Notes under the pieces: model-generated
What the model saw: only the letters and a program-made list of their open reading frames with translations
What the model was told of the DNA's origin: nothing
Database searches by the model: none
Assembly (NCBI RefSeq): GCF_002197985.1
Contig: NZ_NBYK01000002.1
Location: 151,041 to 215,040 of the forward strand
DNA: 64,000 bases
Reading direction: 5' to 3'
From: Halopseudomonas aestusnigri
Lineage (GTDB): Bacteria; Pseudomonadota; Gammaproteobacteria; Pseudomonadales; Pseudomonadaceae
Translations under genes and position numbers: made by a program
Part shown: in pieces, positions 8,553 through 37,398 of the stretch
Position numbering within the stretch: the stretch's first letter is position 1
Layout of the letters: every line of letters starts with the position of its first letter

Positions 8553-8554
8553 GT

Positions 8555-20693: not shown

Positions 20694-21761
<1,068 letters not shown>

Positions 21762-21788
21762 CGGGTAGCGGCTGCTGAGGGAGAGAAG

Positions 21789-21820
21789 AAGGCCGGCGTA
21801 TAGCGGTGCGCCGGCTTTTT
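21789..21820 (+). terminator. Intrinsic terminator of cysB
   Basis: A 7-bp perfect stem GCCGGCG/CGCCGGC with a 10-base loop is followed by TTTTT, 27 bases after the cysB stop. The convergent cysH gene ends just beyond it. Confidence 0.85.
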
Positions 21821-21825
21821 CAGTT

Positions 21826-22551
21826 TCAGGACTTGGCGATCAGGTTGCTGCCGTGCAGGCCGCATTCCTTTTTCGTTGCCTCTTCCCACCACCAGCGACC
21901 TTCACGCTCGTGCTGGTTCGGCAATACAGGGCGGGTGCAGGGCTCGCAGCCGATGCTGATAAAACCACGCTCGTGCAGCGGGTTGTAGGGAATCTCCAGC
22001 ATGCGGATGTAGTTCCAGACGTCCTCGCTGGTGTAATTGGCCAGCGGATTGAATTTGACCAATGGGTGCGTCGGGGTTGAGAACCCGCCGTCCAGCTGCA
22101 CCACCGGAACATCTGCCCGGGTCGGGCTTTGATCCTTGCGCTGCCCGGTGATCCAGGCATCGACGCTGGCCAGTTTGCGGCGCAGCGGCGCAATCTTGCG
22201 CACGCCACAGCATTCGCCATGACCGCTCTCGTAGAAGTCGAACAGGCCTTTTTCGCGCACATAGGCTTCAAGCTGCTGGTGGTCGGGCGACAACACCTCA
22301 AGCTCGATCCCGTAATGCTTGCGCACCTGCTCCAGAAACCGATAGGTCTCGGCGTGCAGGCGGCCGGTGTCGAGGGTAAATACCTTGACGTTCGGGTTGA
22401 GTTTCCAGGCCATGTCCAGCACGACGATGTCGTCGGCGCCGCTGAACGACAGCCAGAGGTTGTCGAAGTTGGCGAATGCCAGCTCCAGAATCTGTTGAGG
22501 GGATTTGCTGGCGTAGTCGATAGCCAGTTGATCGATGTCGAAGGTACTCAT
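21826..22551 (-). CDS. cysH: Assimilatory APS/PAPS reductase CysH with [4Fe-4S] cysteines
   Basis: A 241-residue enzyme reducing activated sulfate to sulfite. It has the phospho-binding [10 protein letters not shown] loop, and the cluster cysteines Cys114/Cys115 ([10 protein letters not shown]) and Cys202/Cys205 (GCEPCTRPV) that mark the iron-sulfur, APS-preferring class found in pseudomonads; the catalytic Cys230 is in KKECGLH. The start read from 22551 (MSTFDID) is preferred over the longer frame to 22617. It lies beside its activator CysB. Confidence 0.93.
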
Positions 22552-22768
22552 GGAAATCAGGCTCTCAATCCGGCGGTGGATCGGTGTGCCACCGTTCTGT
22601 GATCGGCAGTCTAGCAAAGGCCGCCTTAGTCCATCCTCTTTTATTTGGTTATACTTTTATGCGATTTTCGACTTAGAACGGCAGGCTCCAGCCGCCTTGT
22701 GATTGCGCCGAGACCCGCTTGCCGGTAGATTGTGCGCCAGTCTCAAATGTGAATCTCAGGAGTGTCGT

Positions 22769-23386
22769 GTGGAAATCGCTTGCCTTGACCTGGAAGGGGT
22801 GCTGGTCCCTGAAATCTGGATTGCCTTTGCCGAGAAAACCGGCATTGAGGAGCTCAAGGCAACCACCCGTGACATTCCCGACTATGACGTGCTGATGAAG
22901 CAGCGCCTGTCCATTCTCGACAAGCACGGCCTCAAACTGTCGGATATTCAGGAAGTCATTGCGACCCTCAAACCGCTTGATGGCGCCGTCGAGTTTGTCG
23001 ACTGGCTGCGCGAGCGTTTCCAGGTGGTTATTCTGTCGGACACCTTCTACGAGTTTTCTCAGCCGTTGATGCGCCAGCTCGGTTTCCCGACGCTACTGTG
23101 TCACCGCCTGATTACCGACGAAACCGACCGGGTCGTTGACTACCAGTTGCGTCAGAAGGATCCCAAGCGTCAGTCGGTGATTGCGCTCAAGAGCCTGTAC
23201 TACCGCATCATTGCCGCAGGCGATTCGTACAACGACACCACCATGCTCTCGGAAGCGCATGCCGGCATCCTGTTCCACGCGCCGGAAAACGTGATTCGCG
23301 AGTTTCCGCAGTTCCCGGCGGTGCATACCTACGAGGACCTGAAAAAGGCCTTCATCGCAGCGTCCAACCGCGACCTGTCGCTCTGA
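22769..23386 (+). CDS. thrH: Phosphoserine phosphatase / homoserine phosphotransferase ThrH
   Basis: A 205-residue HAD enzyme, the length of P. aeruginosa ThrH. It begins at GTG 22769 (AGGAG six bases upstream), giving the family start MEIACLDLEGVLVPEIW with Asp7 as nucleophile; motif II is ILSDTFYEF and motif IV is AAGDSYNDTTMLSEA. ThrH dephosphorylates phosphoserine and can move the phosphate to homoserine. Its last 58 bases overlap the end of the convergent kinase gene. Confidence 0.95.
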   Translation: MEIACLDLEGVLVPEIWIAFAEKTGIEELKATTRDIPDYDVLMKQRLSILDKHGLKLSDIQEVIATLKPLDGAVEFVDWLRERFQVVILSDTFYEFSQPLMRQLGFPTLLCHRLITDETDRVVDYQLRQKDPKRQSVIALKSLYYRIIAAGDSYNDTTMLSEAHAGILFHAPENVIREFPQFPAVHTYEDLKKAFIAASNRDLSL

Positions 23387-24321
23387 TCTGATGCAGCCGG
23401 CGGTCCCGCCGCCGGCTGCCATCGCCGCCGGACCGCCGGTGGCCAGCCGGTTTTGCTTCCCTTTCTGAATGCTTCCAACAGCGCAGCCACGCTGGTGATC
23501 CGCGCTGCCGGATCAAAGGCCAGTGCCGTGCGCAGTTCACGCCATACCGGTTTTGGTATGCCATGCGGTTTCTGTAAACCGGTTTCTTGCTGCATGCGCA
23601 TTGCCTGGCGCGCCGTCAGGCGGCTGAAGGGGTGATGCCCGCTGGCCAACTCATACAGGACACAGGCGACCGCATACAGATCAGCGGCCGCGGTCAACTC
23701 TTCGCCATCAAGCAGCTCCAGTGCAGCGTAACGCGGTGTCCAGGCGGCCAGACGTCGGCTGAGCCTGGGTAATCGCTGCAGGGGGCCCCGACAGCCTCGT
23801 CCCAGCCCGAAATCAAACAGACGCAGGCCGGCGGTGCTCAGGATGATATTGCCCGGCTTCAGATCACCGTGCAGCACGCCGGCGTCGTGTGCATGGGCAA
23901 GAGCAGACAGCAGGCCGACTGCGAGGGGTTGCAGCGCCGGCCAGGCCATCCCGTCGGGATGGTCGGCGATGATCTGATCCAGCGCAGGGCCCTCAAGCAA
24001 CTCAAGCGTCATGAATGCACGACCGCTCGCCGGGTCGATGTGGTAGCTGTAGGGGCGGATCACATTCGGATGGTGCAGGCGGCAGGTGAGGGCGTACTCC
24101 GCGTAAAGCAGAGCGTTGGCATCGGCATGGGCAGCAAATTGATCGTTCAGGGCCTTCAGTGCCACAGTGGGTTGAGGGTCGTTGAATTGCTCGCGCAGCA
24201 GGTCACGCACCTGATAGACCGCACCCATGCCTCCTACCCCAAGCAGGCGCTCAATACGGTATCGGTTACCCAGTAGTTCGGGTATGGCGGCTGGCGCAAC
24301 CGGAGGCGTCCTGGAGGGCAT
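23329..24321 (-). CDS. T6SS-associated Ser/Thr protein kinase, Stk1/PpkA type
   Basis: A 330-residue Hanks-type kinase: glycine loop GVGGMGAVY (28-36), Lys56 in VALKAL, catalytic loop HGDLKPGN (151-158) with Gly where RD kinases have Arg, DFG at 170-172, and an activation/APE-like segment TPRYAALELL. No membrane segment or vWA domain, so it is a soluble Stk1-like kinase rather than PpkA. It begins by TGATG overlap with the phosphatase gene and is last in the type VI operon. With the phosphatase and Fha it should form the Thr-phosphorylation switch that turns secretion on. Confidence 0.9.
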   Translation of the reverse strand: MPSRTPPVAPAAIPELLGNRYRIERLLGVGGMGAVYQVRDLLREQFNDPQPTVALKALNDQFAAHADANALLYAEYALTCRLHHPNVIRPYSYHIDPASGRAFMTLELLEGPALDQIIADHPDGMAWPALQPLAVGLLSALAHAHDAGVLHGDLKPGNIILSTAGLRLFDFGLGRGCRGPLQRLPRLSRRLAAWTPRYAALELLDGEELTAAADLYAVACVLYELASGHHPFSRLTARQAMRMQQETGLQKPHGIPKPVWRELRTALAFDPAARITSVAALLEAFRKGSKTGWPPAVRRRWQPAAGPPAASDQSDRSRLDAAMKAFFRSS

Positions 24322-25052
24322 CAGCTTGCTCCTGCACTGATTTTGACAACCACTGCGCTCAGGTTGTCGCGTGCCGGTCCCCGCAATGCCAGGCTCACCA
24401 GCTGCGCCGCACCGCTGCTGCTGTCTTGGTGTTCAAGGACCGAGGACAGTTGCGCGGGGCTCAGCTCGCGATGCAGGCCGTCACTGCACAGCAGCAAGGT
24501 ATCACCCGGTTGAGTCATGAACGCCACACTGTCCAGTTTAAGATGGTCATGCGCGCCGACCGCGCGGGTCAGTACATGGGCACCGGGGTGTGAGGCGGCC
24601 GCGGTGCCGGTTACAGCGCCGCGGTCTATCAGTTGCTGCAGCAGCGAGTGGTCGCGGGTCAGTTGGTGAAGTGTTTGCTGGCGCCAGAGATAACAGCGAC
24701 TGTCACCTGCCCACAGGCAGAGCGCCCGATTTGCAGTTGCCAGAAGGATAACCACGGTGCTGCCGACCGGACCGGCTGGCTGGCCCTGCACCTGGGTCAT
24801 GTCCTGAGTCAGCCTGCGGTTGACCTGCTGCAGGGCCTGACGCACCCGACGCTGGTTCTGGTCGATATTTCCAGTCAGCTCAAGTGCGCCCAGTGTGTCG
24901 ATTATCAGGCGGCTGGCGAGCGCGCCGTTGCGGTGACCGCCCATACCATCGGCGACCGCCCAGAGCCCGGAGTCCTGAAGGGCCAGAATGGCATCTTCAT
25001 TGTGTCGACGCTGATTGCCTGGATCGGTTTGAGAGCAGCTTGACCAGTTCAT
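24321..25052 (-). CDS. T6SS-associated PP2C-type Ser/Thr phosphatase (PppA/Stp1)
   Basis: A 243-residue metal-dependent phosphatase with all PP2C landmarks: RRHNEDAIL, VADGMGGHRNG, WAGDSRCYLW, LLLCSDGLH and ARDNLSAVVV. In type VI systems it removes phosphate from Fha and opposes the kinase. It starts within the tssM stop (ATGA) and its stop overlaps the kinase start by one base, so the order tssM-phosphatase-kinase matches P. aeruginosa HSI-II (icmF2-stp1-stk1). Confidence 0.93.
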   Translation of the reverse strand: MNWSSCSQTDPGNQRRHNEDAILALQDSGLWAVADGMGGHRNGALASRLIIDTLGALELTGNIDQNQRRVRQALQQVNRRLTQDMTQVQGQPAGPVGSTVVILLATANRALCLWAGDSRCYLWRQQTLHQLTRDHSLLQQLIDRGAVTGTAAASHPGAHVLTRAVGAHDHLKLDSVAFMTQPGDTLLLCSDGLHRELSPAQLSSVLEHQDSSSGAAQLVSLALRGPARDNLSAVVVKISAGAS

Positions 25053-28000
25053 TGCAGTCGGGCCGGGAGGTTGAAGTCTGCCAGCAGGCCAGGCTCGAAC
25101 GGGTTTGGAGCGCGTTGACTGTGCAGCAGATAGCGGGCACGCATGCCGCCGATATTGGCCCGTAGTTGAAGCGCGTCGCGTTGGTCCTCATGCTCGAGTG
25201 TCAGTTGCTCAAGCAGGCGAAACAGCGACCAGGTACCCTGCTGTCCATGCAGGGTCATTCGCCGGCCTCCCAGATCCTCCAGGGTCAAGCTGATGCGGCT
25301 GTCGTCCAGGCTTGCCGGCCAAGTGAACGCCTTGGGAATGATGGGGCCGTGGCGATATTCCAGCTGATGGTTCCCGTAATAAAAGCTGGCGCGGCTGAGG
25401 CTGGCATCAAGTGAGTAGGGTTCCAGGCGAAACCCGATGCCCGGCTCAAGCGGATTGCTGGCAAAAAAGCTGTCGTGAATGGTCCTGGCCCGGTTCAGTT
25501 GTGTCAGCAGCCTTGCGGACATGGGCAATGCCCGCCCGTCCAGCAGTCGCAGCCGGTAGCCCGCGTCCGTGCTGATCAAAAAGGGCTCCAGATACTGTTC
25601 GGTAAAGCCCTGAATAGTGCCCTCCTGCTGGAAGAAACGCTGGAAGTCGCCTAGCTCCACTTCCCGCTGACTGGCTGGATTGAAGGGGTAGTAGTCCGCG
25701 ATTGCGTCCCGGTATGGGCGATACACCTGGCTGCGATACTGGCCGTTCAGATACTCGGCCGCTGCGCTCAGCACGGTTCGCCAACTCTGGTCGGCAAGCT
25801 GCTTCACCCATAGCTGCAGCGGCGGCGGCAGTTGTGCTGCACTGTCGCGGGTCGCGCTGATAGCATCGCTTTGGCGCTGCATGCGTGCGCTGGCCATCTT
25901 GTAGGTAAGCAGTCCGCGGGCGCTGCTGTCGCTGAGCTGGGCGAGCTGGTGTTGCAATTGACCGATGCTTTGCAATGCGCCAGCCAATTCCGGAGCGGGC
26001 ATGGCATCGTCATCAAGCAGGCGGTGAAGGTGGCTGAAGTGCTGTTGCATGGCCAGCTTGCCTGCGCTGGGTGTTGGGTCGTTAGCGGTTGTCAGTCGAG
26101 TGTGCAGCCTGATCTCCTGCAGCAGCGTCAGCAGGAGTGAGTGCCCGGACGAGAGCGCCGCCAGCTGGTCCGCGCTAGCGCCGGAGTGTGGTTGCAGGCG
26201 GAGGCTGGCCAGGGCGCGATTCCAATGCGAGGTGTAATCCTGAAAGTAGATGCTCTCCACGTCTACCATCAGCGCCTGCTCGGTTTGCCTGTTAACCGGT
26301 TCGGCGAGGCCCAGTACCCAGTCGTCGGCCAGCAAGTCATGAATCAGCGCCGGACCTCTGGTTTTGATCAGGCTTTCATAGCCGGTATTGATGTAGAACC
26401 CGGGAATGTCGACCGGTTCGGATGTCAGTAACCGGTGGTGGCGTCCAAGGCGGGCATCGAGGCGGTAGTCGGGGAGGGATCTGGAGCGTTCCCGGAGCAA
26501 TCGGTAGCAAAGTCGGGCCAGGGGCTCTTGCCGCATGATCTCCCTAGCGCTGGCTACCAGGGACTCATCAAGCGTCTGGGGCGTTGGAGCGGAGGCAAGC
26601 AGGCGGCTTAAATGGGCCTCCAGGCTCTCTCTGACCGCGGGTTGTCTGGGGTAGCGGCGCGTCCACTCCGTGTGCATCCATTCCTCAAGGTAGGCGCTGT
26701 CCAGGCGCTCCGGCAGACCCAGCATCAGGTAAGCGCGCAGGTGCCCGATCAACTGCTGGCGGTCTTCAAGGTCGGTGCTCAGGCGGTATTCCAGTTGACG
26801 CATTACCAGTGGCAGCAGGAAGGTACGCAGTGCATCTGAATAGGCCTTTTCGACTACCGGCAGAGTCGCCTCGGACTGCTCAAGACTCAGGCGCTGGAGG
26901 CCGGCAGGCATCGACGCCGGCTGGGGTATCAGCGTTGCCGCGTAGCGGGTATCGAGCTGCTGAAGCAAGGGTTCGATTCTGCTGTGTGCCTGGACCGCGG
27001 CAGCATCCTGGACGACGTGTCGGCCAAGCTCGGCAAGTTGCTGCAGCTGCTCGGCCTCGTGCCCGTAGCGCCAAGCCCAGCCAGTTGCAGACAGTGTCAC
27101 ACAGGCTGCGGCGAGACCGACCGTGACCCGTTGCCTGGTGCGTTGTCGCGTGCGCTGCTCGTCTGCGACCGTGACGCCATCAGGCCGCCCGGCAAGCGGA
27201 TTTTCCAGTAATCGCCTGCTGAAGGCGCCTTGAACCGAAGGGCGCGGCAGCGAGCCAGGGATCAGAACGTCGTGTTCGCTGGCGGCGATCGTCAGATAGA
27301 TTCCATGCACTCGACTGCCATGCTGGTAGCTGTTGCTGTCAAATGCCTGGTTGAGGAACTGACGAAGCGACCCTTCCAGTTTCGCCAGTTGATAGGGAAG
27401 ATCGTAAAGACGGCCGCGGCGCAGGCTGTCCGACTCCTGTTGGGTTCGACAGAGGATTTGACGATTCAGCTGAGCCAGCAGCGGGCCAAGGGCGCCGGTA
27501 CTGGCCTGTGCCGGGTCCGCTGCACCCGGCAGCGTCGCGCCCAGTGGCTGCAGACGCTGCTCCGGTGTCAGTTGCTGGCATAACTCAATGATGCCGGGCA
27601 GCAGATCGGCCTTGCTCAGCAGCAGGTAAACCGGCAGGTCCAGTCCCAGTGCCTTGCGCAACGTGCTCAGTGCAAGCCTGTACCGGCGTGCCAGTTGGTC
27701 GAGCTCAAGGGTGTTCTGCGTGGTCAGCAGGTCCATTGGCAGCATCAGCGCGATGGCATTGAGCGCCGGCGCCCGACGCTGACGCAATAGCCCCAGCAGT
27801 GCTGTCCAGGCCGGTGAACGTGGCTCCTGATCTGCGGACGGCAGGCAGCTGCCACCCGCTTGAAGCCAACTGCAGTGGCTGAGGCTGTGCCACTCTGCCG
27901 GGCTGATACCCTGGGGCCCATGGGGGGCAGTGACAGTTGTGCAGTATCCGCTTAACTCTGCGCTTGCAAACAGGCGCTTCTTGCCCGAGTTCTCCGGGCC

Positions 28001-28372
28001 GAGCAGCAGATACCAGGGTTGCCGACGTTGCTGGCGTTGGCTTACCCCGTGCTCTGCCAGCAGGTGGCGACTTAATCCATAGCGTTGTTCCAGGGCGACG
28101 CGGGCCTGCAGGGTTGCTGCGTTACTGGCGGCTTGATCGCCGTTTGCTCGCCTTTGCTTGAGCTGATCGAGCAACTGCCAGACCAGCCAGGGCGAGAGCA
28201 GTATCGTACCAGCCAGCAGGCGGCTGCCGGGGCCGGCCAGTATGGTCTTGCCGTTGAAGGCGATGTTCGGGCCGAGCACCCAGATCAAGGCAGCGAGGAT
28301 CAGCAGTATCAGCAGAGACCAGCCGGCAGGTTTGCGCAGATAGGAGGCTACCCGCTGATAAAGGGCCTTCAT
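25049..28372 (-). CDS. tssM: Type VI secretion membrane complex protein TssM (IcmF)
   Basis: A 1107-residue inner-membrane protein, within the TssM range. Two membrane segments lie near the N-terminus (about 19-34 and 52-68) and a third near residue 440 (VTVGLAAACVTLSATGWAW). The cytoplasmic NTPase-like domain between them has a Walker A position GPENSGKK (125-132) in which Lys replaces the usual Ser/Thr. The long C-terminal part is periplasmic and should contact TssJ. The start read from 28372 overlaps the tssL stop (ATGA); an extra 57 codons upstream are rejected. Confidence 0.93.
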   Translation of the reverse strand: MKALYQRVASYLRKPAGWSLLILLILAALIWVLGPNIAFNGKTILAGPGSRLLAGTILLSPWLVWQLLDQLKQRRANGDQAASNAATLQARVALEQRYGLSRHLLAEHGVSQRQQRRQPWYLLLGPENSGKKRLFASAELSGYCTTVTAPHGPQGISPAEWHSLSHCSWLQAGGSCLPSADQEPRSPAWTALLGLLRQRRAPALNAIALMLPMDLLTTQNTLELDQLARRYRLALSTLRKALGLDLPVYLLLSKADLLPGIIELCQQLTPEQRLQPLGATLPGAADPAQASTGALGPLLAQLNRQILCRTQQESDSLRRGRLYDLPYQLAKLEGSLRQFLNQAFDSNSYQHGSRVHGIYLTIAASEHDVLIPGSLPRPSVQGAFSRRLLENPLAGRPDGVTVADEQRTRQRTRQRVTVGLAAACVTLSATGWAWRYGHEAEQLQQLAELGRHVVQDAAAVQAHSRIEPLLQQLDTRYAATLIPQPASMPAGLQRLSLEQSEATLPVVEKAYSDALRTFLLPLVMRQLEYRLSTDLEDRQQLIGHLRAYLMLGLPERLDSAYLEEWMHTEWTRRYPRQPAVRESLEAHLSRLLASAPTPQTLDESLVASAREIMRQEPLARLCYRLLRERSRSLPDYRLDARLGRHHRLLTSEPVDIPGFYINTGYESLIKTRGPALIHDLLADDWVLGLAEPVNRQTEQALMVDVESIYFQDYTSHWNRALASLRLQPHSGASADQLAALSSGHSLLLTLLQEIRLHTRLTTANDPTPSAGKLAMQQHFSHLHRLLDDDAMPAPELAGALQSIGQLQHQLAQLSDSSARGLLTYKMASARMQRQSDAISATRDSAAQLPPPLQLWVKQLADQSWRTVLSAAAEYLNGQYRSQVYRPYRDAIADYYPFNPASQREVELGDFQRFFQQEGTIQGFTEQYLEPFLISTDAGYRLRLLDGRALPMSARLLTQLNRARTIHDSFFASNPLEPGIGFRLEPYSLDASLSRASFYYGNHQLEYRHGPIIPKAFTWPASLDDSRISLTLEDLGGRRMTLHGQQGTWSLFRLLEQLTLEHEDQRDALQLRANIGGMRARYLLHSQRAPNPFEPGLLADFNLPARLQ

Positions 28373-29223
28373 CGTTTGACTCCCGGTTGTGCGGTGATGC
28401 CCGCGCTGCTGGTCAGGTAAGGCTCCAGCGCGGCGTTGCGGTGTTGCTCCAGATAATGGTTGAACCCCAGGAACAGGATTGCCAGACAGCTGGCGGTGGC
28501 AACCGCCGTCACCCAGCCAGGCACCGGCCTCACCGGGGGGCACGGTTCAGGGTGGACGATCTGTGAGCCCAGGTGCATATCCGGCGGGCTGCGGTAATGC
28601 TGTAGCGCGGCGTGCAAGCGGCTGCGAATGTGTTCCAGTTCTTGCTGGCCGCGCAGTTGCAGCCGGTAGCGACCTTCAAAACCGAGGCAGAGGCAGGCCA
28701 GCATCAATTCGAGCATGTCGATATGCCGGGCCATGTCCTGTGACAGGCGGGTGAGCAACAGAAAGAACTTCTCTCCCCCAAAGGTTTCCTGGTGGAAGGC
28801 GCTGAGAAGGCTGCGGCTGGACCAGTTGCTGTTGTTGCCCCAGCGGGTAGTGAGAATGGCTTCGTCCAGGGCGGTGCAGAGCACGTAGCGGGCAGCCTGC
28901 CTGCTGGCTGGCGCAACCTCGAGGTGTCTGCACTGCTGGTCAAACTGCCGTATGCCGGCTTCCAGGGTGACGCGCAGGACGTCGATTGGCTCGCGCTCGC
29001 CGCTGCCGGTGCGCAGGGCGACCAGTTCGGACAGCAGTGGCGCTGCGGCGGCGAGCAGCGGGTTGGGCTGCACGTCAGTGGTGCGGCACAGATCATCGTC
29101 TGTTCGCGGTGCGATGCACGCCGCGGATGCCGCGTGGTCGGTCAGCGAGTATCGAGTGTGCCCGGCCATGCTGCCGGACAGGATGACAGTGCGATCGTCG
29201 TCAGGGTAGTCGCCGTTGTACAT
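28369..29223 (-). CDS. tssL: Type VI secretion protein TssL (DotU/IcmH)
   Basis: A 284-residue cytoplasmic hook-like domain with a single C-terminal membrane helix (about WVTAVATASCLAILFLGF). Family landmarks are YVLCTALDEAILTTRWG, WSSRSLLSAFHQETFGGEKFF and LELMLACLCLGFEGRYRL. TssL pairs with TssM in the inner membrane and docks the TssK baseplate protein. ATG read from 29223 is used; a GTG read from 29247 would overlap tssK and is possible. No peptidoglycan-binding OmpA domain follows, so cell-wall anchoring would need another protein. Confidence 0.93.
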   Translation of the reverse strand: MYNGDYPDDDRTVILSGSMAGHTRYSLTDHAASAACIAPRTDDDLCRTTDVQPNPLLAAAAPLLSELVALRTGSGEREPIDVLRVTLEAGIRQFDQQCRHLEVAPASRQAARYVLCTALDEAILTTRWGNNSNWSSRSLLSAFHQETFGGEKFFLLLTRLSQDMARHIDMLELMLACLCLGFEGRYRLQLRGQQELEHIRSRLHAALQHYRSPPDMHLGSQIVHPEPCPPVRPVPGWVTAVATASCLAILFLGFNHYLEQHRNAALEPYLTSSAGITAQPGVKR

Positions 29224-29228
29224 GCAAG

Positions 29229-30560
29229 TCAGTCTCTGATAGCCCACAGGGCCAGTTTCAATTCGGGCAGATCGCCGGCGGCGTGGAAGGCAATGCCGCC
29301 GGAGCGTGATAGCTGTGCGCGTTCATCGCTGCCGGGTGTCAGCGCGAAATAGCAGTGGTCCCGGCGGAAGGGAAGCTGTCTGGGCGCGACGGGCAGTGGC
29401 TGCAGGCGGATGCCGGGCAGGTGCAGGTTGACCAGCTGACGAATATGTTCGACAGCGCCGACCTTGAGGTGGTTGGGCAAACGGTTGCGCAGTTCCTCGC
29501 TGCTGCAGGCTGCCGTTGCGGCGAGTACAAAGCGTGCCCCGTCAATGAGGTCGGGGTCGTTGATGGGCGCGACTTGCACACCATACTGACGCTGCTGCAG
29601 CGGTAACTCGACACTGTGCTGTTCCAGAACGCTGGATAGACGTTGCCGCAGGACCCGCATCAGGGCGTCGAAACTCCGGCTTTGATCAATATGCTGATAT
29701 TGCAACGCCGGCGATGGCCGCCGACTGTCGGAGCAGAATGTCGCCAGCTCTGCCTGCAACGACAGCAGAATGCTGTACAGCTCGGCGGCGGGTGTCTGGG
29801 TCCTGTGCTGGTGGTGCCGGAGGATTGCCTCATGGCGGTTGATCAACTGCAGGGTCAGCAGATCCCCGATCTCTGCCCCGGCGGCCTGGCCACGGGCGAG
29901 CATTCGTTCTGCCAATACGTCTGCGCGCTGCTGCAGCAGGCTGATTACCTCCTGCAGGCAGCGTCCGAGAAAGGGGCTGGGCTGACAGTGAATAAAGGTT
30001 GCCGGAAAACGCTCGTCCAGCCTGACGCCTCCGTCTGCAGTGCTGTCGCGGACCGTACAGACCCTCATGCGGACCAACCCGGGCGACTGTGCGTCAGCGT
30101 CCAGTTGTAGTTGAAGATTCGGTCTGGCGCAGAGCAGCGGGCTCTCTGTTTCGGCGTGTCCGTTACTCTCGTTCAACGGCTGCGTGATGGTCGCGAACCG
30201 GGCCATGGCGTTGTCGCGTTCAGGGGGGACAGCCCCGGTGGGTTCAGCGGCCTGCAGTGGCAGGGTCAGATAAATGTCGGTGTCGGTCTGGTTAGCGGGG
30301 ATATCCAGCGCAAGTGGTGTCGGGTCGCTGTCCAGTTGAAACAGCGTGCCATCCGGCAGCAGTCCGCTGGCCTGGCAGATGACCAGTTTCCCCATTGGCA
30401 GAAAGGCTTCGTCGATCTTGAGGCTGTGAAAGCCCCACGCGTCTGCGAGCAGGCCTTTGATGCGTAGCGCCAATTGCTGTTCGTGGTACCTGTCCTGCCC
30501 CTGGAAGTGCTGGGGGCGCAGCAGCATGCCCTCCTGCCAGACGATCTTCAGTGCCTGCAT
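29229..30560 (-). CDS. tssK: Type VI secretion baseplate protein TssK
   Basis: A 443-residue protein beginning with the TssK signature VWQEGMLLRPQHFQGQDRYHE and containing LTLQLINRHEAILRHH and the C-terminal YFALTPGSD region. TssK links the baseplate to the TssL/TssM membrane complex. Start choice: the ATG read from 30560 has GGAG nine bases upstream, whereas the ATG five codons earlier has none. One base separates it from tssJ. Confidence 0.93.
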   Translation of the reverse strand: MQALKIVWQEGMLLRPQHFQGQDRYHEQQLALRIKGLLADAWGFHSLKIDEAFLPMGKLVICQASGLLPDGTLFQLDSDPTPLALDIPANQTDTDIYLTLPLQAAEPTGAVPPERDNAMARFATITQPLNESNGHAETESPLLCARPNLQLQLDADAQSPGLVRMRVCTVRDSTADGGVRLDERFPATFIHCQPSPFLGRCLQEVISLLQQRADVLAERMLARGQAAGAEIGDLLTLQLINRHEAILRHHQHRTQTPAAELYSILLSLQAELATFCSDSRRPSPALQYQHIDQSRSFDALMRVLRQRLSSVLEQHSVELPLQQRQYGVQVAPINDPDLIDGARFVLAATAACSSEELRNRLPNHLKVGAVEHIRQLVNLHLPGIRLQPLPVAPRQLPFRRDHCYFALTPGSDERAQLSRSGGIAFHAAGDLPELKLALWAIRD

Positions 30561-30561
30561 G

Positions 30562-31038
30562 TCAGGGTGCTCCATTGCTGACTGGCGGGTGCAGCCCGTT
30601 GCTGTCGAGCTGCACTCGAACGGCGTTGCGCTTGCGCGGGGCCAGGTCCAGGGTCAGACGCCAGCGGGCACCGGCCAGGTCGCGATAGCTGGCCACCAGC
30701 CCGAGATGACGGGTGTCCGGTTGCAGGGCCAGTTTCAGTGTGCGCTGCTCGCCCGGGCGCAGCTCCATCTCTTCCATAGCCAGCAGGTCCGGTGCCAGCA
30801 GCGCTGCCGGACGTTGCTGCAGATCGAAGTAGTCGGCTTGCTCGAAAGCGGTGGCGTGGCTGAGTTCAACCAGTTGCAGTACCAGCGGAGAGGGCCTGCC
30901 GTTCAAGTCCGGATTGAGTTGGTCCGATGCATTCAGGGTCAGATCGAGTTTGGTCAGATCAGAGTAGGGTGACAGCTGGCTGCAGGCACCGAGCAGCGCG
31001 CAGGCTGTGAGACTGACAAGAAAACGGGCAAAGGGCAT
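30562..31038 (-). CDS. tssJ: Type VI secretion outer-membrane lipoprotein TssJ
   Basis: A 158-residue lipoprotein with signal peptide and lipobox LLGAC (Cys19). The mature part has the transthyretin-like TssJ pattern: LDLTLNASDQLNPD, LVLQLVELSHATAFEQADYFDL and the late VASYRDLAGARWRLT strand. TssJ anchors the periplasmic part of TssM to the outer membrane. It follows fha by four bases and precedes tssK by one. Confidence 0.92.
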   Translation of the reverse strand: MPFARFLVSLTACALLGACSQLSPYSDLTKLDLTLNASDQLNPDLNGRPSPLVLQLVELSHATAFEQADYFDLQQRPAALLAPDLLAMEEMELRPGEQRTLKLALQPDTRHLGLVASYRDLAGARWRLTLDLAPRKRNAVRVQLDSNGLHPPVSNGAP

Positions 31039-31042
31039 GGGG

Positions 31043-32128
31043 TTATCCGAGATGTTGGTGAAACGCGCCCAGAAGGCGTGCCTGATCCTGATAGGTGCGA
31101 TTGAACGCATCGCTTAATAGCTGCTGCAGCTGCTCCGGCCGCCGGGCATAAACTTCACACAGTGCGCGCCAGCGGGCGCCGTCACTGCGCAGTGGGCCCA
31201 TCGATCCGACCAGGTGGTGAGGTGCGAGCAGTTGCGTCAGACGCTCGGTGCAGTGGCGGTTGGCCTGTTGCATTGCCAATATCTGGGCGCGCAGTCGGTG
31301 ACAGCCGCTGCGCAGCAAGCCGGTGGCGTCTGGCTCATGCTGTAACAGGTGCTCAAGCAGTGCCTGGGGCGTATCGTGCTGGAGGCCGGGATGGGGGTGG
31401 TCCCTGAGACCCAGGGTCTCGTCCAGCTGCTGCGCTGCGCGCAGGCTGAGTTGCAGCTCGCCCAGCAGAACTCTTAGCAGGGATGCAGCTTGCAGCGCCT
31501 GCTCGGCGAGGTTGTCGCGGTTGTTGAGGTCCAGCCCGAGGCGCTGGCAGATCTGTTCGGCCAGCGTGTCGTCTTCAGGCGGCCTGTAGTCTGACAATAT
31601 TGCCCGCCGCGGCAAGCGGACATGCTCCGACTCTATGCGGTGGTGATCGTCCTCGGTTGCCAGGTGGGCGGGCGCGACGATATTGGGCTTTGGCTCGTTG
31701 GCGGGTAACAGCGCGTCGAGCAGGTCGTCGGTGTGGTAGTCGGCGTCGCTGCCGCCCAGTTCGAGAAAGGCGTCATCCGGAATAAGGCCCTGCGGAGTCA
31801 CGGGGACGGCTTGGAGTCTGGCTCTGACCTCAAGTTCACCCATGCGATAGATGTGGCCGTGCTCGATGTCTACCGGCGTACCGTGCGGCAGCTTTTGGCT
31901 GTCGTGCTTGCGGGTAATGCCGTTGCTGCTCAGATCGACCAACTGGTAGCGTTGCTGGTCGAAGCGGATCTCGGCATGCTGGCCGGACAGTATGCGAGAC
32001 GGGTCGTCCAGCACCCAGTCACAGTGGCTGGCCCGGCCGATGATGCCGCCGGCTGCTCTGAAGGTTCGGCAGCGCGCGGGCTCATCCTCGCGGCGTGGCG
32101 GATGAATCACATCCAGCGTCAATTCCAT
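31043..32128 (-). CDS. Type VI secretion FHA-domain protein (Fha/TagH)
   Basis: A 361-residue protein with an N-terminal FHA domain (about 20-95): GGIIGRASHCDWVL, SGQHAEIRF and LSSNGI, the phosphothreonine-reading loops. A linker rich in His/Asp/Pro is followed by the TagH/ImpI C-terminal helical domain (about 190-361, ending in ARLLGAFHQHLG). Fha is the substrate of the kinase/phosphatase pair and promotes assembly when phosphorylated. GGAG lies eight bases before its ATG, which is inside the end of the upstream lipoprotein gene (10-base overlap). Confidence 0.92.
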   Translation of the reverse strand: MELTLDVIHPPRREDEPARCRTFRAAGGIIGRASHCDWVLDDPSRILSGQHAEIRFDQQRYQLVDLSSNGITRKHDSQKLPHGTPVDIEHGHIYRMGELEVRARLQAVPVTPQGLIPDDAFLELGGSDADYHTDDLLDALLPANEPKPNIVAPAHLATEDDHHRIESEHVRLPRRAILSDYRPPEDDTLAEQICQRLGLDLNNRDNLAEQALQAASLLRVLLGELQLSLRAAQQLDETLGLRDHPHPGLQHDTPQALLEHLLQHEPDATGLLRSGCHRLRAQILAMQQANRHCTERLTQLLAPHHLVGSMGPLRSDGARWRALCEVYARRPEQLQQLLSDAFNRTYQDQARLLGAFHQHLG

Positions 32129-32274
32129 GCGCCACGCTCCATGGGTCGCGGCTCTATTGGCGTGTCGAGTGGGCGGTATCGCTCATCGTCAAAGCGCAGA
32201 TTTCCGGTGCAGCCGCCGAGCAGGCAGAGCAGCAGCAGGGTAGCAAGACGGTACTGTGGTGGTGTTCTGGGCAT
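32119..32274 (-). CDS. Short predicted lipoprotein heading the type VI operon
   Basis: A 51-residue frame starting at the ATG read from 32274: basic N-terminus (MPRTPPQYR), hydrophobic core and lipobox LLGGC, leaving a mature chain of about 29 residues (FDDERYRPLDTP then IEPRPMERG). It overlaps the fha start by 10 bases, which suggests translational coupling. It occupies the place of the small orfX that precedes fha2 in P. aeruginosa HSI-II, but homology is not established. A further in-frame extension to 32328 lacks support. Function not recognised. Confidence 0.65.
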   Translation of the reverse strand: MPRTPPQYRLATLLLLCLLGGCTGNLRFDDERYRPLDTPIEPRPMERGAWN

Positions 32275-32349
32275 GGCAAATCCGTTGCGGGTCCGGCGCG
32301 AATCGTCCTGAATTGCGCTTGGGGTCACTTCAGCAATCTCTGTTCCTGA

Positions 32350-32355
32350 ATTATA
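32350..32355 (-). promoter_or_regulatory. Candidate -10 element for the type VI operon
   Basis: A perfect TATAAT on the minus strand sits in the only AT-rich part of the 212-base gap between the type VI operon and the next minus-strand gene. The matching -35 is poor (AAGCTT at 17 bases). No sigma-54 -24/-12 pair was found in this gap. Confidence 0.3.
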
Positions 32356-32486
32356 TAAATCAGTTAAATCAAAAGCTTGGGTTCTGTTTGTGACTCACGA
32401 TGGATGCCGTTGTGACGGGGTTGTCACCATGGTGCGCAAAGGCCTGCGCAGTAGCGGTAAAAACTGGCGCAGGACCGCCGGCAGGC

Positions 32487-32945
32487 TCAAGGTATCTGGC
32501 GGGCCAGGGCATAGGTTCCGGTGGCATGCGCCACCAGATTGTGTTCGTCGCCTGCGCTGTACAGATCAACTGCGCAGACCGCCTGGCGTTCGCCGCGCTT
32601 CATCCAGGTTGCTCTGGCGTAGAGGTCAAGTGGCGCGGGGGGTGCCAGAAAGTGGATGTTCAGGTTGCTGGTGACAGCCATCTCCTGGCGACCCGGCCCG
32701 GCAAGAATCAGCGCATACATGGCGGCGTCTGCCAGTGCCATCATGGTTGGTCCGGATAGTGTGCCGCCGGGGCGGATCAGCCGGGTGTTGAACGGGACGC
32801 AGGCGACCGCAATGTTGCTATCGCTGCTGATGACCTGCAAGTCGAGGTCGTCGGCCTGTGGCACGCCTTCCCGGATCAGGGTTTGAATATCGCTGGATGA
32901 CAGCATCAGGATTGGAGCCTCACCTGGGGGAGGCTCTATGGTCAT
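32487..32945 (-). CDS. PaaI-type hotdog thioesterase
   Basis: A 152-residue single hotdog-fold protein with the helix-and-turn GGTLSGPTMMALADAAMYALI and the strand NLNIHFLAPP, as in PaaI/YbgC-like acyl-CoA thioesterases. The ATG read from 32945 overlaps the stop of the upstream peptidase gene (ATGA), which supports it over the later ATG read from 32906. Third gene of the PA2779-PA2778-thioesterase operon. Substrate unknown. Confidence 0.82.
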   Translation of the reverse strand: MTIEPPPGEAPILMLSSSDIQTLIREGVPQADDLDLQVISSDSNIAVACVPFNTRLIRPGGTLSGPTMMALADAAMYALILAGPGRQEMAVTSNLNIHFLAPPAPLDLYARATWMKRGERQAVCAVDLYSAGDEHNLVAHATGTYALARQIP

Positions 32946-33877
32946 CGACAGACCGGGATCGTACAAGCGGCGTCAGCGCCAACATGTATGCCGTTTTGCG
33001 AATGGTTTGCGGCGCAGGCACGAACCTGTGCTGCGGCCTCTGTGCAGCCCAGTTCTTCCATGCCGGTTGCCAGATTGTTCCAGCCTGCCTGGTAGTCGGG
33101 GAAACGCCGCACCAGTTCGCTGAAGTGCTCCAGCGCTTCGCTGTGGCGTCCGCTGCTCCAGGCGATATTGCCGAGGCCGAGTAGTGGCGCCGGCTGTTCG
33201 CTCCAGCGCTCGCTGGCCTGCCGATAGGCCGCCTCGGCACTGGTGGTCTGACCAACCTGTTCGAGATCCGCTGCAGCTTTCAGGTAGGGCAAAGGCTCGG
33301 CTGTCGCCGGTATTCGGTCTGCCGGAACTGCGACGACGGCCCAACTGTTCGCGCGTTGCCAGGTGCGCAGGAATAGCGCAAAGGATTCGCGCTGGCGCGC
33401 GTTCAGGCCGGAGTGAAGGATTAGATCCCGGGTGTTGAGATCATAGCCAACCACCACTGCGTAGTGCCATTGCGGGTACCAGTCGAAGGCCAGGTTCTGC
33501 ATGACCAGCACCGCATTGCCGGCATCGATTTCGCGCAGGATTGCGCCCAGTTCAGGCGCGAGCGGATAGACCAGCAGACCCTGTTCTCGGGCGGCTGCAA
33601 TCATTTCTACTTGCAGGCTGCCCTGGCGCTCGGGCAAGTAGACACGATCGGTGAGCTGCTCCGGTGCGATGTCGATGTTGCGCTGACCAAGCAGCATCGA
33701 CAGCGCTGCAGGGCCGCACTGATACTCATCCTGGGCATGAAACGGCAGATTGGTCAGCAGCCGATTGGCCGGGAGGTTGTCCGGGAGGTTTTGCTGTGGG
33801 GTGGGGGTTAGCCCGGCACAGGCTGACAGCAGTGCTGTCAGCCCAAGTGCCAGGGCCAGCCGAATAGCCCTGATCAT
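32942..33877 (-). CDS. PA2778-family lipoprotein cysteine peptidase (C39-like) with TPR repeats
   Basis: A 311-residue lipoprotein: lipobox LLSAC (Cys20), then a C39/papain-like domain with catalytic Cys54 in EYQCGPAALSMLL, His138 in PQWHYAVVVGYD and a following Asp in DLILHSG. From about residue 205 TPR-like helices follow (LLGLGNIAWSSGRHSEALEHF). C39 domains normally cut double-glycine leaders inside ABC exporters; here the domain is free and lipid-anchored, so it would act in the periplasm. It follows the PA2779-like gene by four bases. Confidence 0.85.
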   Translation of the reverse strand: MIRAIRLALALGLTALLSACAGLTPTPQQNLPDNLPANRLLTNLPFHAQDEYQCGPAALSMLLGQRNIDIAPEQLTDRVYLPERQGSLQVEMIAAAREQGLLVYPLAPELGAILREIDAGNAVLVMQNLAFDWYPQWHYAVVVGYDLNTRDLILHSGLNARQRESFALFLRTWQRANSWAVVAVPADRIPATAEPLPYLKAAADLEQVGQTTSAEAAYRQASERWSEQPAPLLGLGNIAWSSGRHSEALEHFSELVRRFPDYQAGWNNLATGMEELGCTEAAAQVRACAANHSQNGIHVGADAACTIPVCR

Positions 33878-33881
33878 GATG

Positions 33882-34283
33882 TCAGTTTACGCAGTTGACG
33901 AAGCTGTAGACGTTGGTTGCGCAGAGCATGTCGGTGATGATGAAGATGACCAGAAACAGCACGATGATGCCAACAACGCCGGCACCTGCGGGTGCTTCAT
34001 CCAGCTGGCTGTTGAACTGGGCAAGCTCGGCGGTGGTCAGGCTGTCGATGCGCTTTTCAACCTGGTCGGGTGTTACACCCATACTGGCCAGCTTGTCCTG
34101 AACGGCCTGATCATCGAGCATGCTTTTGAGTTCGGCACGGTCCACAGTCAGTTGCTGCTGGGCAATGGCCTCACCAGTGCCGACCATGGCGGCCTGGGCC
34201 TGAATGCTGGCCAGGGACGTCAGCATGAACAGGGCGGTGAGCATGATGGACAGATAACGCTTTGTTGTTCGCATGAAAGTCAT
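33882..34283 (-). CDS. PA2779-family small membrane protein
   Basis: A 133-residue protein with an N-terminal signal or anchor (RYLSIMLTALFMLTSLASIQ), a helical middle rich in Gln/Asp/Leu, and a C-terminal hydrophobic segment (VGIIVLFLVIFIITDML) ending in a tail with two Cys. This is the pattern of the PA2779 family, always beside the PA2778 peptidase in pseudomonads as far as I recall. GAGG eight bases upstream supports the ATG read from 34283. Function unknown; it could be a substrate or partner of the peptidase. Confidence 0.8.
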   Translation of the reverse strand: MTFMRTTKRYLSIMLTALFMLTSLASIQAQAAMVGTGEAIAQQQLTVDRAELKSMLDDQAVQDKLASMGVTPDQVEKRIDSLTTAELAQFNSQLDEAPAGAGVVGIIVLFLVIFIITDMLCATNVYSFVNCVN

Positions 34284-34440
34284 CGGACATACCTCGATTT
34301 GTTGTGGCTTCCCTGCTTGGAAGCTGTTAACCACGATAGGTGGCTTCTGCTGGTGCGTAAGACGCGCTCCCTATAACCGACCCATGCAATGCCTGCGGGT
34401 TCCACTATGCCATTGCTGCTGTGACCTGGTTCACGACTCC

Positions 34441-35724
34441 TCAGATGCCCAGCTTGTCGCGCATCTGGTAGTACCAGGCGCCAATCGCGGTGAACGGAAT
34501 GCGGAACAGTCTGCCGCCCGGGAAGGGGTAATGCGGCAGTGCGGCAAAGGCGTCGAAACGCTCTGCCTGGCCGCGCAGGACCTCTGCGAGCACCCGGCCG
34601 GCAACGTGGGTAAAGGTAACCCCGTGGCCACTGCAGCCTTGCGAGTAGTAAATGTTGTTGCCAATGCGACCCATCTGCGGCAGGCGTGACAGGGTCAGCA
34701 GGAAATTGCCGGTCCATGCATAGTCGATCTTCACGTCCTTGAGCTGCGGGAAAGTCTTGATCAGGTTGGGACGAATCAGCGCCTCGATGTTGCTCGGGTC
34801 ACGGGCACCGTAGACAACCCCGCCGCCAAAGATGAGGCGCTTGTCGCCGGAGAGACGGTAGTAGTCGAGCAGATAGGCACAATCCTCTACACAATAGTCC
34901 TGCGGCAGCAGCGATGCGGCCAGCTCGTCCGACAGCGGCTCTGTGGTAACCACCTGGGTACCGCAAGGCATGGACTTGGCCGCCAGTTGCGGCAGCAGGT
35001 CGCCCAGATAAGCGTTGCCGGCGACGATTACATAACGGGCTTTTACCTGACCCTGCGCGGTGTGCACGACGGGATGCTCGCCCTGGTCGATACGGGTCAC
35101 CGGCGACAGCTCGTGAATGATGCCGCCCAGTGATTCGAAGGCGGCTGCCTCGCCGAGCACCAGGTTCAACGGGTGAATGTGGCCGCCGCTCATATCGAGC
35201 ATGCCGCCGACATAGATATCGGTATTGACCACCTCGCGGATGCGCTTGCTGTCCAGCATCTCGAGTTGGGTGTGGCCGTAGCGCTCCCAAAGCTGCTTTT
35301 GAGCCTCAAGGTGCTTCATGTGCTTGCTGTTGAACGCGGCAAAGACGCCGCCGTCTTTGAGGTCACACTGGATGTTGTACTGGGCTACGCGCTCGCGAAT
35401 GATGCGTCCGCCTTCAAAGGCCATATCGCCTAGCAATCGTGCTTGCTGAGCGCCCAGGGTGCGCTCGATAACGTCAATGTCGCGGCTGTAGCTGTTGACG
35501 ATCTGGCCACCGTTACGACCGGATGCGCCAAAGCCGACCTTGACTGCTTCCAGTACGGTGACTTTGAAGCCCTGCTCCGCCAGGTGCAGGGCGGCAGAGA
35601 TACCGGTGAAGCCGGCACCGACGATGCAGACGTCGGTTTCATGGCTGCCTTGCAGGGCGGGGCGCTCGGGCGCGGGGTTGGCTGAGGCTGCGTAGTAGGA
35701 AGTGGTGTGTCGGGTCTCGGCCAT
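34441..35724 (-). CDS. puuB: FAD-dependent oxidase, gamma-glutamylputrescine oxidase (PuuB/PauB) family
   Basis: A 427-residue DAO-fold flavoprotein. The dinucleotide motif is VCIVGAGFTGISAALHLAE; ASGRNGGQIVNSYSRD and the C-terminal GCSGHGVTFTHVAGRVLAE are typical of PuuB-like enzymes, which oxidise gamma-glutamyl-polyamines or related amines giving H2O2. It lies beside the PA2779/PA2778 operon as PA2776 (pauB3) does in P. aeruginosa. Other polyamine genes are absent here, so substrate is inferred from family. Confidence 0.82.
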   Translation of the reverse strand: MAETRHTTSYYAASANPAPERPALQGSHETDVCIVGAGFTGISAALHLAEQGFKVTVLEAVKVGFGASGRNGGQIVNSYSRDIDVIERTLGAQQARLLGDMAFEGGRIIRERVAQYNIQCDLKDGGVFAAFNSKHMKHLEAQKQLWERYGHTQLEMLDSKRIREVVNTDIYVGGMLDMSGGHIHPLNLVLGEAAAFESLGGIIHELSPVTRIDQGEHPVVHTAQGQVKARYVIVAGNAYLGDLLPQLAAKSMPCGTQVVTTEPLSDELAASLLPQDYCVEDCAYLLDYYRLSGDKRLIFGGGVVYGARDPSNIEALIRPNLIKTFPQLKDVKIDYAWTGNFLLTLSRLPQMGRIGNNIYYSQGCSGHGVTFTHVAGRVLAEVLRGQAERFDAFAALPHYPFPGGRLFRIPFTAIGAWYYQMRDKLGI

Positions 35725-35826
35725 GGGGGCACCTGTGCAAATGTTTGTTGAAAATATTTGACAATATGCGCCGATCCTAACGCCTGGGATGCTCTATTGC
35801 TATAGGGTGATCAAAAAAAACGACAG

Positions 35827-37398
35827 TCAGGGGTGTGCGGGTTCAGCCTCTGCCGCGCCACCTTGTGGTGGCGCTTTTGGCAATGGTTTGCACAGTAATA
35901 CGAAGATCATCGAGCAGCCGAGCATCAGGGCAATCAGATGGAAGGCATCGTTGTAGGCCATGATGGCGGCCTGCTGATGCACCTGGTTGCTCAGCAGTTG
36001 CAGTGCGCTCTGCTCATTGCCAAGCTGGCCGGTGAGTAGGTGCATGCGTTCTTCGAATGCCGGATTGCCCGGGGTTATATGCTCACGCAGGAAGTCGAAA
36101 TAGTATTTGGCGCGGCTGTCGAGAATGGTCGCCAGCGCGGCGATGCCGATAGCGCCGCCAAGGTTGCGCAGAATATTGTACAGACTGGAGGCAGAGCCGG
36201 CCTGCGAAGGCGCAATCATGGCGGTAGCGATGATCGACATGGGCACCAGGACCATGGGTTGTCCGAAGGCGCGGAAGATCTGGATGGCGATAAACTGATC
36301 GCCGGCAAAATCCAGGCTCAGGCTGCCGCTGTAGAAGCTGGCAAAGGCGAACAGAAAGAACCCGGTCGCGCAGATCAGCCGCGCATCGATAAAGCGCATG
36401 AGGATCGGTACCAGCGGAATGATCAGCAGCTGGGGGATGCCCATCCACATGATGACCTGACCAATCTGCAGCGCGTTGTATTGCTGAATCTGGGCCAGGT
36501 AGACCGGCAATACGAATACCGTGCCGTACAGGCCGACCCCCAGGCCAATATTGGCCAGGCTGCCGAACAGAAAGTTGCGATCCTTTAGCAGGCGCAGATT
36601 GACTAGAGGGTTTTCTCTGGTGAGCTGAATGATGACGAAGCTGATCAGACTGACAAAGCTGATGATCGCCAGTGCCAGCATCAGATTGGACTCCAGCCAG
36701 TCCTTGCGATGGCCTTCTTCCAGAAACACCTGCAGGCAACCCAGGCCGACCGCCATGGTAACAATGCCCATGTAATCGCCCTGGCGCAGCAGATCCCAGC
36801 GTGGTTGCGACTTGTCCAGTCCGTACATCAGCCCGGCGGCCATCAGAATGCCGGGAACGATGTTGATGTAGAAAATGTATTCCCAGCCAAAATGTTCGGT
36901 CAGCCAGCCACCGATGGTGGGGCCGATCGATGGAGCAAAGGTGGCGGTAATGGCAAACAGTGCCATGCCCTTGGGGCGCGAGGAGGGCGGCAGCTTGATC
37001 AGAATCAGGGTAAAGGCAAACGGGATCAGTGCGCCGCCGGCAAGGCCTTGCAGCGCACGAAACACGATCATGCTTTCCAGGCTCCAGGCCACCGAACACA
37101 GCAGCGACGCGATGACGAAGATGGCCGAGATGGTTACCGCAAAGCGGCGTGGCGAGAAGATGGTAGTCAACCAGGCCGCGAGGGGGATGATGATGATCTC
37201 TGCCACCAGATAGGAGGTAGAAATCCAGGAGCCTTCCTCGATGGTGGCCGACAGCGCGCCCTGAATATCCTTCAGCGACGAGTTGATGATCTGAATGTCC
37301 AGAATCGCCATGAAGGCGCCGAGAATGGCGCTGAGCAGGGCGATCCAGTCGCGCCTGCCCGGTGGTGGTATGTCGTGGGCGGAGCCGGCGTTAGTCAC
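35827..37398 (-). CDS. emrB: DHA2-family MFS efflux permease, EmrB/QacA type
   Basis: A 523-residue transporter with 14 predicted membrane segments. Motifs include LGAFMAILDIQIINSSL (motif with the conserved Asp), IIPLAAWLTTIFSPRRF, the proton-coupling RALQGLAGGALIP and GPTIGGWLTE (motif C). It starts at GTG read from 37398, eight bases inside the end of emrA, with AAGGT upstream. Together with EmrA it should expel hydrophobic drugs using proton flow. Confidence 0.9.
   Translation of the reverse strand: MTNAGSAHDIPPPGRRDWIALLSAILGAFMAILDIQIINSSLKDIQGALSATIEEGSWISTSYLVAEIIIIPLAAWLTTIFSPRRFAVTISAIFVIASLLCSVAWSLESMIVFRALQGLAGGALIPFAFTLILIKLPPSSRPKGMALFAITATFAPSIGPTIGGWLTEHFGWEYIFYINIVPGILMAAGLMYGLDKSQPRWDLLRQGDYMGIVTMAVGLGCLQVFLEEGHRKDWLESNLMLALAIISFVSLISFVIIQLTRENPLVNLRLLKDRNFLFGSLANIGLGVGLYGTVFVLPVYLAQIQQYNALQIGQVIMWMGIPQLLIIPLVPILMRFIDARLICATGFFLFAFASFYSGSLSLDFAGDQFIAIQIFRAFGQPMVLVPMSIIATAMIAPSQAGSASSLYNILRNLGGAIGIAALATILDSRAKYYFDFLREHITPGNPAFEERMHLLTGQLGNEQSALQLLSNQVHQQAAIMAYNDAFHLIALMLGCSMIFVLLCKPLPKAPPQGGAAEAEPAHP

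Follow-up and report, generated by a model that had tools for sequence, protein, structure and literature searches.

A probably single type VI secretion system encoded in two distant halves in a Halopseudomonas clade, with a putative hcp-type promoter at the membrane half

Introduction

The closest described relative of the system considered here is the H2 type VI secretion system (T6SS) of Pseudomonas aeruginosa, encoded by the HSI-II cluster, whose gene order and accessory set (a sigma-54 activator gene, here called sig54, a lipoprotein gene, lip, fha, a PP2C phosphatase gene, and a kinase gene) are matched within each of two separate halves of a T6SS in Halopseudomonas aestusnigri. One of these, the membrane half, lies at 23329..32274 on the minus strand of the stretch of DNA that we analysed, a 64,000-nucleotide segment of contig NZ_NBYK01000002.1 (positions 151,041 to 215,040) referred to below as the window. 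In a locus of P. aeruginosa PA7 (L123; L-numbers denote loci), the genes run contiguously as tssC-tssE-tssF-tssG-clpV-sig54-lip-fha-tssJ-tssK-tssL-tssM-PP2C-kinase, which agrees with an earlier sequence-only reading of the window that had likened its gene order to the second half of HSI-II. Compared with HSI-II, the Halopseudomonas cluster is cut between sig54 and lip and, not being contiguous, is a variant of that type; contiguity is not needed for function. With a probability of roughly 0.75, we read the two halves as one H2-type (HSI-II-type) T6SS whose single cluster was broken up when the chromosome of the ancestor of one Halopseudomonas clade was rearranged, the membrane half receiving the promoter of an hcp module.

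Several described systems share part of this arrangement. In P. aeruginosa PA14, the H2 cluster and the hcp and vgrG loci are under RpoN/Sfa2 and RsmA; the RpoN sites that the portion of that paper used here lists for P. aeruginosa are at tssA2, hcp2, and the vgrG loci, and no site within the cluster ahead of lip is among them (PMC8855297). Split T6SS loci have been reported in Geobacter, Xanthomonas, Yersinia pestis, and Hahella, and for most of these both loci cluster on the tree, which was taken to mean that the split followed acquisition (Boyer et al. 2009, PMC2660368, as far as the excerpts used here go). A Xanthomonas cluster, i4, is likewise described, in the excerpt used, as lying in two loci (PMC9048695). 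The Halopseudomonas system resembles the cases of Boyer et al. in having complementary T6SS genes at two loci and differs in that its junctions and the origin of its promoter can be read, whereas the excerpted text of Boyer et al. names neither rearrangement nor promoters (PMC2660368). A further parallel is offered by the hcp-vgrG satellite modules under sigma-54 promoters, which are unlinked loci served by one activator and have the promoter architecture found at lip. Unlike these modules, which encode tube, spike, and effectors, in Halopseudomonas half of the structural machine stands behind such a promoter. Searches of open-licence papers on split or inverted T6SS clusters and on RpoN and T6SS brought up no account of this split or of a promoter capture; for Halopseudomonas and type VI secretion they brought up two papers, in each of which either term occurs once. 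Split T6SS loci are already known; the captured promoter seems to be new.

The clade amounts to a natural experiment in operon splitting, with both junctions, a sister clade that keeps the cluster whole, and six descendants available for comparison. It allows one to ask how a machine of many parts survives the loss of co-transcription, and the answer it suggests is the inheritance, from a satellite module, of a promoter that already responded to the same activator. Split T6SS loci in other bacteria could have come about in this way, and the order in which the membrane and sheath genes are expressed becomes open to genetic dissection.

Results

The genome to which the window belongs (3.83 Mb, 30 contigs) carries T6SS genes at four separate places. 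As the sequence-only reading had proposed as one of two possibilities, the missing half lies elsewhere: tssA, tssB, tssC, tssE, tssF, tssG, clpV, and sig54, all in one direction, occupy approximately 247-258 kb of contig C4. The hcp gene is on contig C2, some 227 kb from the membrane half, and vgrG is on C5. Genome-wide copy counts, made for TssC, IcmF, Hcp, and VgrG, gave one of each; the sheath half does not adjoin the membrane half. All 13 core components TssA-TssM, Hcp and VgrG included, are encoded.

We compared 37 genomes of the genus (G-numbers, G000 being that of the window). TssM is present in 30 genomes and TssC in the same 30. In 17 genomes a single contig carries both, no more than about 25 kb apart, and in six of the 30 (G000, G001, G007, G010, G011, and G023) they are truly apart, with non-T6SS flanks read on both sides of each half; the split thus recurs in five of 36 genus-mates. 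G007 is a single contig of 3,935,609 bases, with tssM at 186 kb and tssC at 3569 kb. In six drafts (G003, G004, G009, G016, G018, and G035) the halves are on different contigs, and these were counted as neither linked nor split; contig ends fall between the halves in G004, G009, G016, and G018, and the TssM of G003 is on a 4.8-kb contig. The contig of G027 that bears TssC ends within the TssM gene. Because contig ends or flanks fit a whole cluster in G004, G009, G016, G018, and G027, these five were entered as linked rows in the leader and tree tables, except that G016, whose sheath genes are cut by a contig end, was left out of the trees. G019 was left out of the tree, rate, and leader tables for its divergent system.

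The junctions were read against G017, a linked relative assembled as a single contig. At 401-430 kb, G017 has the order EamA-LysE-unnamed gene-tssA..sig54-fha..kinase-thrH, where thrH is the sequence-only reading's label for a HAD phosphatase gene. At approximately 1057-1066 kb, it has MFS-DAO-DUF6627-C39/TPR-PaaI-EamA2-CTI, an order found also in G018 and, without PaaI, in G009. The window instead joins C39/TPR-PaaI to lip-fha..kinase-thrH, and C4 joins LysE..tssA..sig54 to EamA2-CTI. The sister genome G017 therefore keeps both ancestral adjacencies, sig54-fha and PaaI-EamA2. As two adjacencies have been swapped for two others with matching orientations, a single two-break event, equivalent to an inversion on one circular chromosome, is indicated. 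Since the sister clade has both the whole cluster and the reciprocal junctions, one such rearrangement with breakpoints at sig54|lip and PaaI|EamA2 would explain the split. The sheath/baseplate/ClpV half would have kept LysE as one neighbour and received EamA2-CTI as the other, and the membrane half would have kept thrH and received the PaaI side. From the PaaI-EamA2 adjacency in G017 and G018 and the edge of the promoter match described below, the junction in the window can be placed approximately at 32479..32487, at the end of the PaaI-like gene and before the putatively captured promoter. Symmetry about the terminus is usual for inversions around it. The halves in G007 are nearly symmetric about the point opposite dnaA (midpoint 3.84 Mb vs 3.83 Mb, by arithmetic from positions), and the two breakpoints in G017 are about 88 kb off that symmetry.

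The upstream region of lip carries the elements of a putative activator-dependent sigma-54 promoter. An exact palindrome, TGCGCA-N6-TGCGCA (32433..32450 in the window), presumably the site of the T6SS sigma-54 activator, stands upstream of lip/fha in all six split genomes, and a GG-N10-GC box of sigma-54 type (32332..32348, minus strand) follows 100-102 bp beyond it at a conserved position, also in all six. No palindrome with at most one mismatch was found within 500 bases before fha in any of 12 linked genomes. Between palindrome and box in the window is a site resembling that of integration host factor (32367..32379, minus strand), judged by eye against the consensus. In mononucleotide shuffles, the exact palindrome arose at a rate of 3e-5 and both elements together in 0 of 30,000. 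The palindrome occurs six times in the window's own genome (control 0), once at lip and once at hcp, and 3-5 times in each of the other five split genomes, once at lip in each. The remaining four exact copies in the window's genome (C1:91286, C1:197152, C2:405678, and C8:16429) are away from known T6SS genes and may be regulon members or chance occurrences.

The promoter is best read as a captured hcp promoter, because a profile of hcp promoters finds it. When a profile built from 19 hcp upstream regions of linked relatives was run against 2.32 Mb of loci, the six lip upstreams scored E 3.8e-16 to 8e-12; one member of the profile ranked above them, and the hcp promoters of the split clade itself came below (1.1e-8 to 0.013). 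In the window, the homologous stretch is 32331..32478 (minus strand; nhmmer E 2.6e-12). Linked tssA upstreams match the profile only around the palindrome. Among 80 named loci (E up to 1e-4), the lip upstream was matched in 4/4 split Halopseudomonas loci, which are four of the same six species, and in 0/76 others, and the remaining matches are hcp upstreams or, in L108, near a contig end. Plain nucleotide comparison of the lip promoters with other loci, their matches to one another aside, retrieved nothing but the palindrome upstream of an hcp gene. The gap between sig54 and fha is shorter than 400 bases in 49 of 65 linked named loci.

Both halves are under purifying selection. The ratio of nonsynonymous to synonymous substitution rates (dN/dS) is 0.013-0.215 across 15 T6SS genes in two close pairs and 0.055-0.304 in the more distant pair G000-G010, gene spans crossing a stop having been cut at that stop. 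In the tree of six membrane proteins and in that of six sheath proteins, each from 17 genomes, the six split genomes form one group, whose inner branching is the same in both, although in the sheath-protein tree the branches among linked genomes are partly unresolved. In all 15 T6SS genes the split lineage is 1.5- to 4.2-fold longer than its sister, as against 1.1-1.5 in four testable neighbour genes; the presumed rewiring was thus accompanied by faster protein evolution in the two halves alike. The ratio of T6SS to neighbour distance is 1.4-7.8 in four split pairs and 0.8-2.2 in four linked pairs, ranges that overlap. Although its genes stand in two places far apart, the machine has probably remained complete and functional, the orphaned half apparently being driven by a borrowed promoter, and it would be expected to fire.

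Discussion

Regulation in trans, which the sequence-only reading had foreseen for a cluster in two parts, is supported by the sigma-54-type promoter and the activator-type palindrome upstream of the orphaned half. The membrane half would have acquired both from an hcp (hcp-vgrG) module, and the activator, whose gene closes the sheath operon, most likely binds the palindrome and so switches on both hcp and the membrane half in trans; its recognition helix is identical in 17/17 genomes apart from a single K in place of R in G027 (in G016 the gene is absent from the stretch examined). A box preceded by an activator site was found at lip and not at tssA in the six split genomes. The evidence points rather to a cascade than to the same activator switching on the sheath half: the sheath operon with its activator gene would be expressed first, and the membrane half and hcp would follow in trans. 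Hairpins with GGA in the loop may add shared control, as candidates for binding by RsmA. Those with an AGGAN loop and at least five pairs occur in the tssA leaders of 6/6 split and 1/12 linked genomes and in the lip leaders of 5/6 split and 0/12 linked genomes, well above the background in the split clade (165/12,000 shuffles and 40/3,194 window stretches), and GGA-loop hairpins of at least five pairs were found in 0/24 hcp leaders. The hairpin in the window's lip leader (32296..32318, minus strand) is the weakest of the set, with four consecutive pairs by a strict rule. The loop of these candidates has 5 bases; classic RsmA/CsrA sites have a 6-base loop.

The origin of the cut can be sketched more tentatively. 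In linked relatives, vgrG lies between sig54 and fha (G015 and G029), directly after sig54 (G009), or between tssC and tssM (G020, G022, and G033), and three hcp-vgrG pairs, equal in Hcp score, are present in G017; these positions and pairs suggest that the break arose through recombining modules. That the operon was cut by recombination involving its own hcp-vgrG satellites and rewired by promoter capture, turning a self-activating operon into a feed-forward cascade, is a scenario to which we give somewhat less than an even chance.

Several observations weigh against the reading of one cluster cut by a single rearrangement and rewired through an hcp promoter. G007 and G017 lack collinearity along the arc that separates the junctions: of the G007 arc, half can be aligned to that of G017, with 133,448 bases in the same orientation and 142,318 in the opposite one, so about half of the aligned bases are inverted. 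Because of this, the case for a single inversion is made by the four junctions; the arc interior has been rearranged again. An hcp-vgrG module at both breakpoints was found in none of the genomes read. A box of equal score occurs in about 5% of shuffled upstreams. The component search covered TssA-TssM. At tssA, the palindrome is present in 12/12 linked genomes (nine exact, three with one mismatch) and, at up to one mismatch, in 0/6 split genomes. A search for sigma-54 boxes before tssA, and before the unnamed gene preceding it, gave none that was convincing in either the split or the sister genomes. These results point away from joint control of both halves by the activator.

Among the alternatives, the one that survives best is that the cluster was duplicated, with two whole copies at the C39/TPR gene (w_32942) and at the LysE/thrH site, and that the split clade then lost opposite halves. 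Linked relatives do carry the cluster at either site, and in the six that have it at w_32942 (G005, G006, G013, G015, G021, and G029) the palindrome-bearing tssA upstream adjoins that gene, where the split clade has its lip promoter. Yet in G017 and G018 PaaI directly adjoins EamA2 with no T6SS there, the outer flanks in the split clade are exactly the reciprocal ones, and the lip upstream resembles hcp promoters far better than it resembles the tssA upstreams. We therefore consider duplication with complementary loss unlikely. A very improbable alternative is that the divergent T6SS of the split clade was acquired from a source beyond the genus and displaced the earlier system. The stem of the clade is indeed very long, at 1.0 changes per column vs 0.14 for its sister, but in a tree rooted with seven non-Halopseudomonas Pseudomonadaceae the clade is sister to the G009/G017/G018 clade with support of 100, although long branches tend toward the outgroup, and on the LysE and thrH sides it shares its flanks with the sister clade.

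We give still less credence to the other possibility raised by the sequence-only reading, namely that the membrane half was kept for another purpose with the sheath half not its partner. The halves are unlinked and both evolved fast in the split clade; against this, the genomes with TssM are exactly those with TssC, the trees agree on the split clade, and low dN/dS and raised rates are common to both halves. With all 13 core components encoded and purifying selection on 15 T6SS genes, there is also no need for this explanation. That an ordinary cluster was misassembled or has decayed has next to nothing left in its favour: the window's genome is a draft of 30 contigs, but the junction recurs in five other genomes, one of them a single contig, the frames are open, and selection is purifying. 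Outside acquisition, another purpose, misassembly, and decay were accordingly rejected on the shared junction, open frames, purifying selection, trees, and flanks. The preferred reading remains that of one cluster, cut once and rewired.

Gene content and flanks of the membrane half

Pfam searches, and direct reading of the lip frame, agree with the eight minus-strand genes that the sequence-only reading had placed in the block. The first is lip (32119..32274), encoding a 51-aa lipoprotein with a lipobox and having counterparts in G001, G007, G010, and G023 by tblastn. It is followed on the same strand by fha (31043..32128; PF00498, E 3.3e-12), tssJ (30562..31038; PF12790, E 7.7e-39; ATG start at 31038, longest ORF to 31110), tssK (29229..30575; PF05936, E 4.1e-129), tssL (28369..29223; DotU domain PF09850, E 5.6e-60; ATG start at 29223, longest ORF to 29247), tssM (25049..28372; IcmF domains, E 9.6e-59 and 1.2e-41; ATG start at 28372, longest ORF to GTG at 28543), the PP2C phosphatase gene (24321..25052; PF13672, E 5.8e-14), and, last, a Stk/PpkA-like Ser/Thr protein kinase gene (23329..24321; PF00069, E 2.1e-32). 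No frame has an internal stop, as had been claimed. The claim that overlaps and gaps are at most five bases holds, with the chosen starts, for most neighbours; lip and fha overlap by 10 and tssK and tssJ by 14, the latter with the longest tssK start. Taken mechanically, longest-ORF calls overlap by up to 175.

The upstream neighbour (32487..32966, minus strand) is a PaaI-like 4HBT thioesterase gene, correctly named before (PF03061, E 9.8e-11), for which no match was found in the loci of the other five split genomes. It is accompanied by the C39/TPR, DUF6627, DAO, and MFS genes (32942..37398, minus strand; Pfam). Downstream is the HAD phosphatase gene (22703..23386, plus strand; Pfam), apparently the original right flank of the cluster, which adjoins the kinase gene also in linked G017, G009, and G018. 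No T6SS genes were found among the Pfam-tested neighbours on either side (20787-23386 and 32487-37398).

Other loci

Two observations concern other members of the genus. The T6SS of G019 (L058 and L059) is clearly different, its TssC and TssM being 41% and 24% identical to those of the window's system. In G018, tssA (L047, approximately 7597-9123) has an in-frame stop after residue 173, possibly an assembly error.

Outside Halopseudomonas, a locus of Pseudomonas fluorescens PS662 (L142) has ClpV directly before lip with no sigma-54 activator gene matched, so that it is linked and the activator is apparently missing. In Stutzerimonas kunmingensis NZ_CP090366.1 (L141:1-19500), and also in L119, L121, and L145, the order lip-fha-tssJKLM-PP2C-kinase is followed by vgrG, and no sheath, ClpV, or sigma-54 gene was matched upstream of the membrane half in these loci; the upstream genes of L141 are metabolic (aldehyde dehydrogenase, HDOD, and enoyl-CoA hydratase). 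Loci of this type are possibly an independent split at the same junction. In Pseudomonas kuykendallii (L140:3182-9510), an hcp promoter, hcp, a vgrG with a Tle1-like domain, and a DUF2931 gene immediately precede lip-fha-tssJKLM, and the 3.4 kb on the far side of hcp contain no sheath half, an arrangement that resembles the expected intermediate of the proposed promoter capture. The same locus encodes, at 794-2080 on the minus strand, an autotransporter-like protein with a strong ubiquitin-family match (E 2.1e-29), which is odd for a bacterium.

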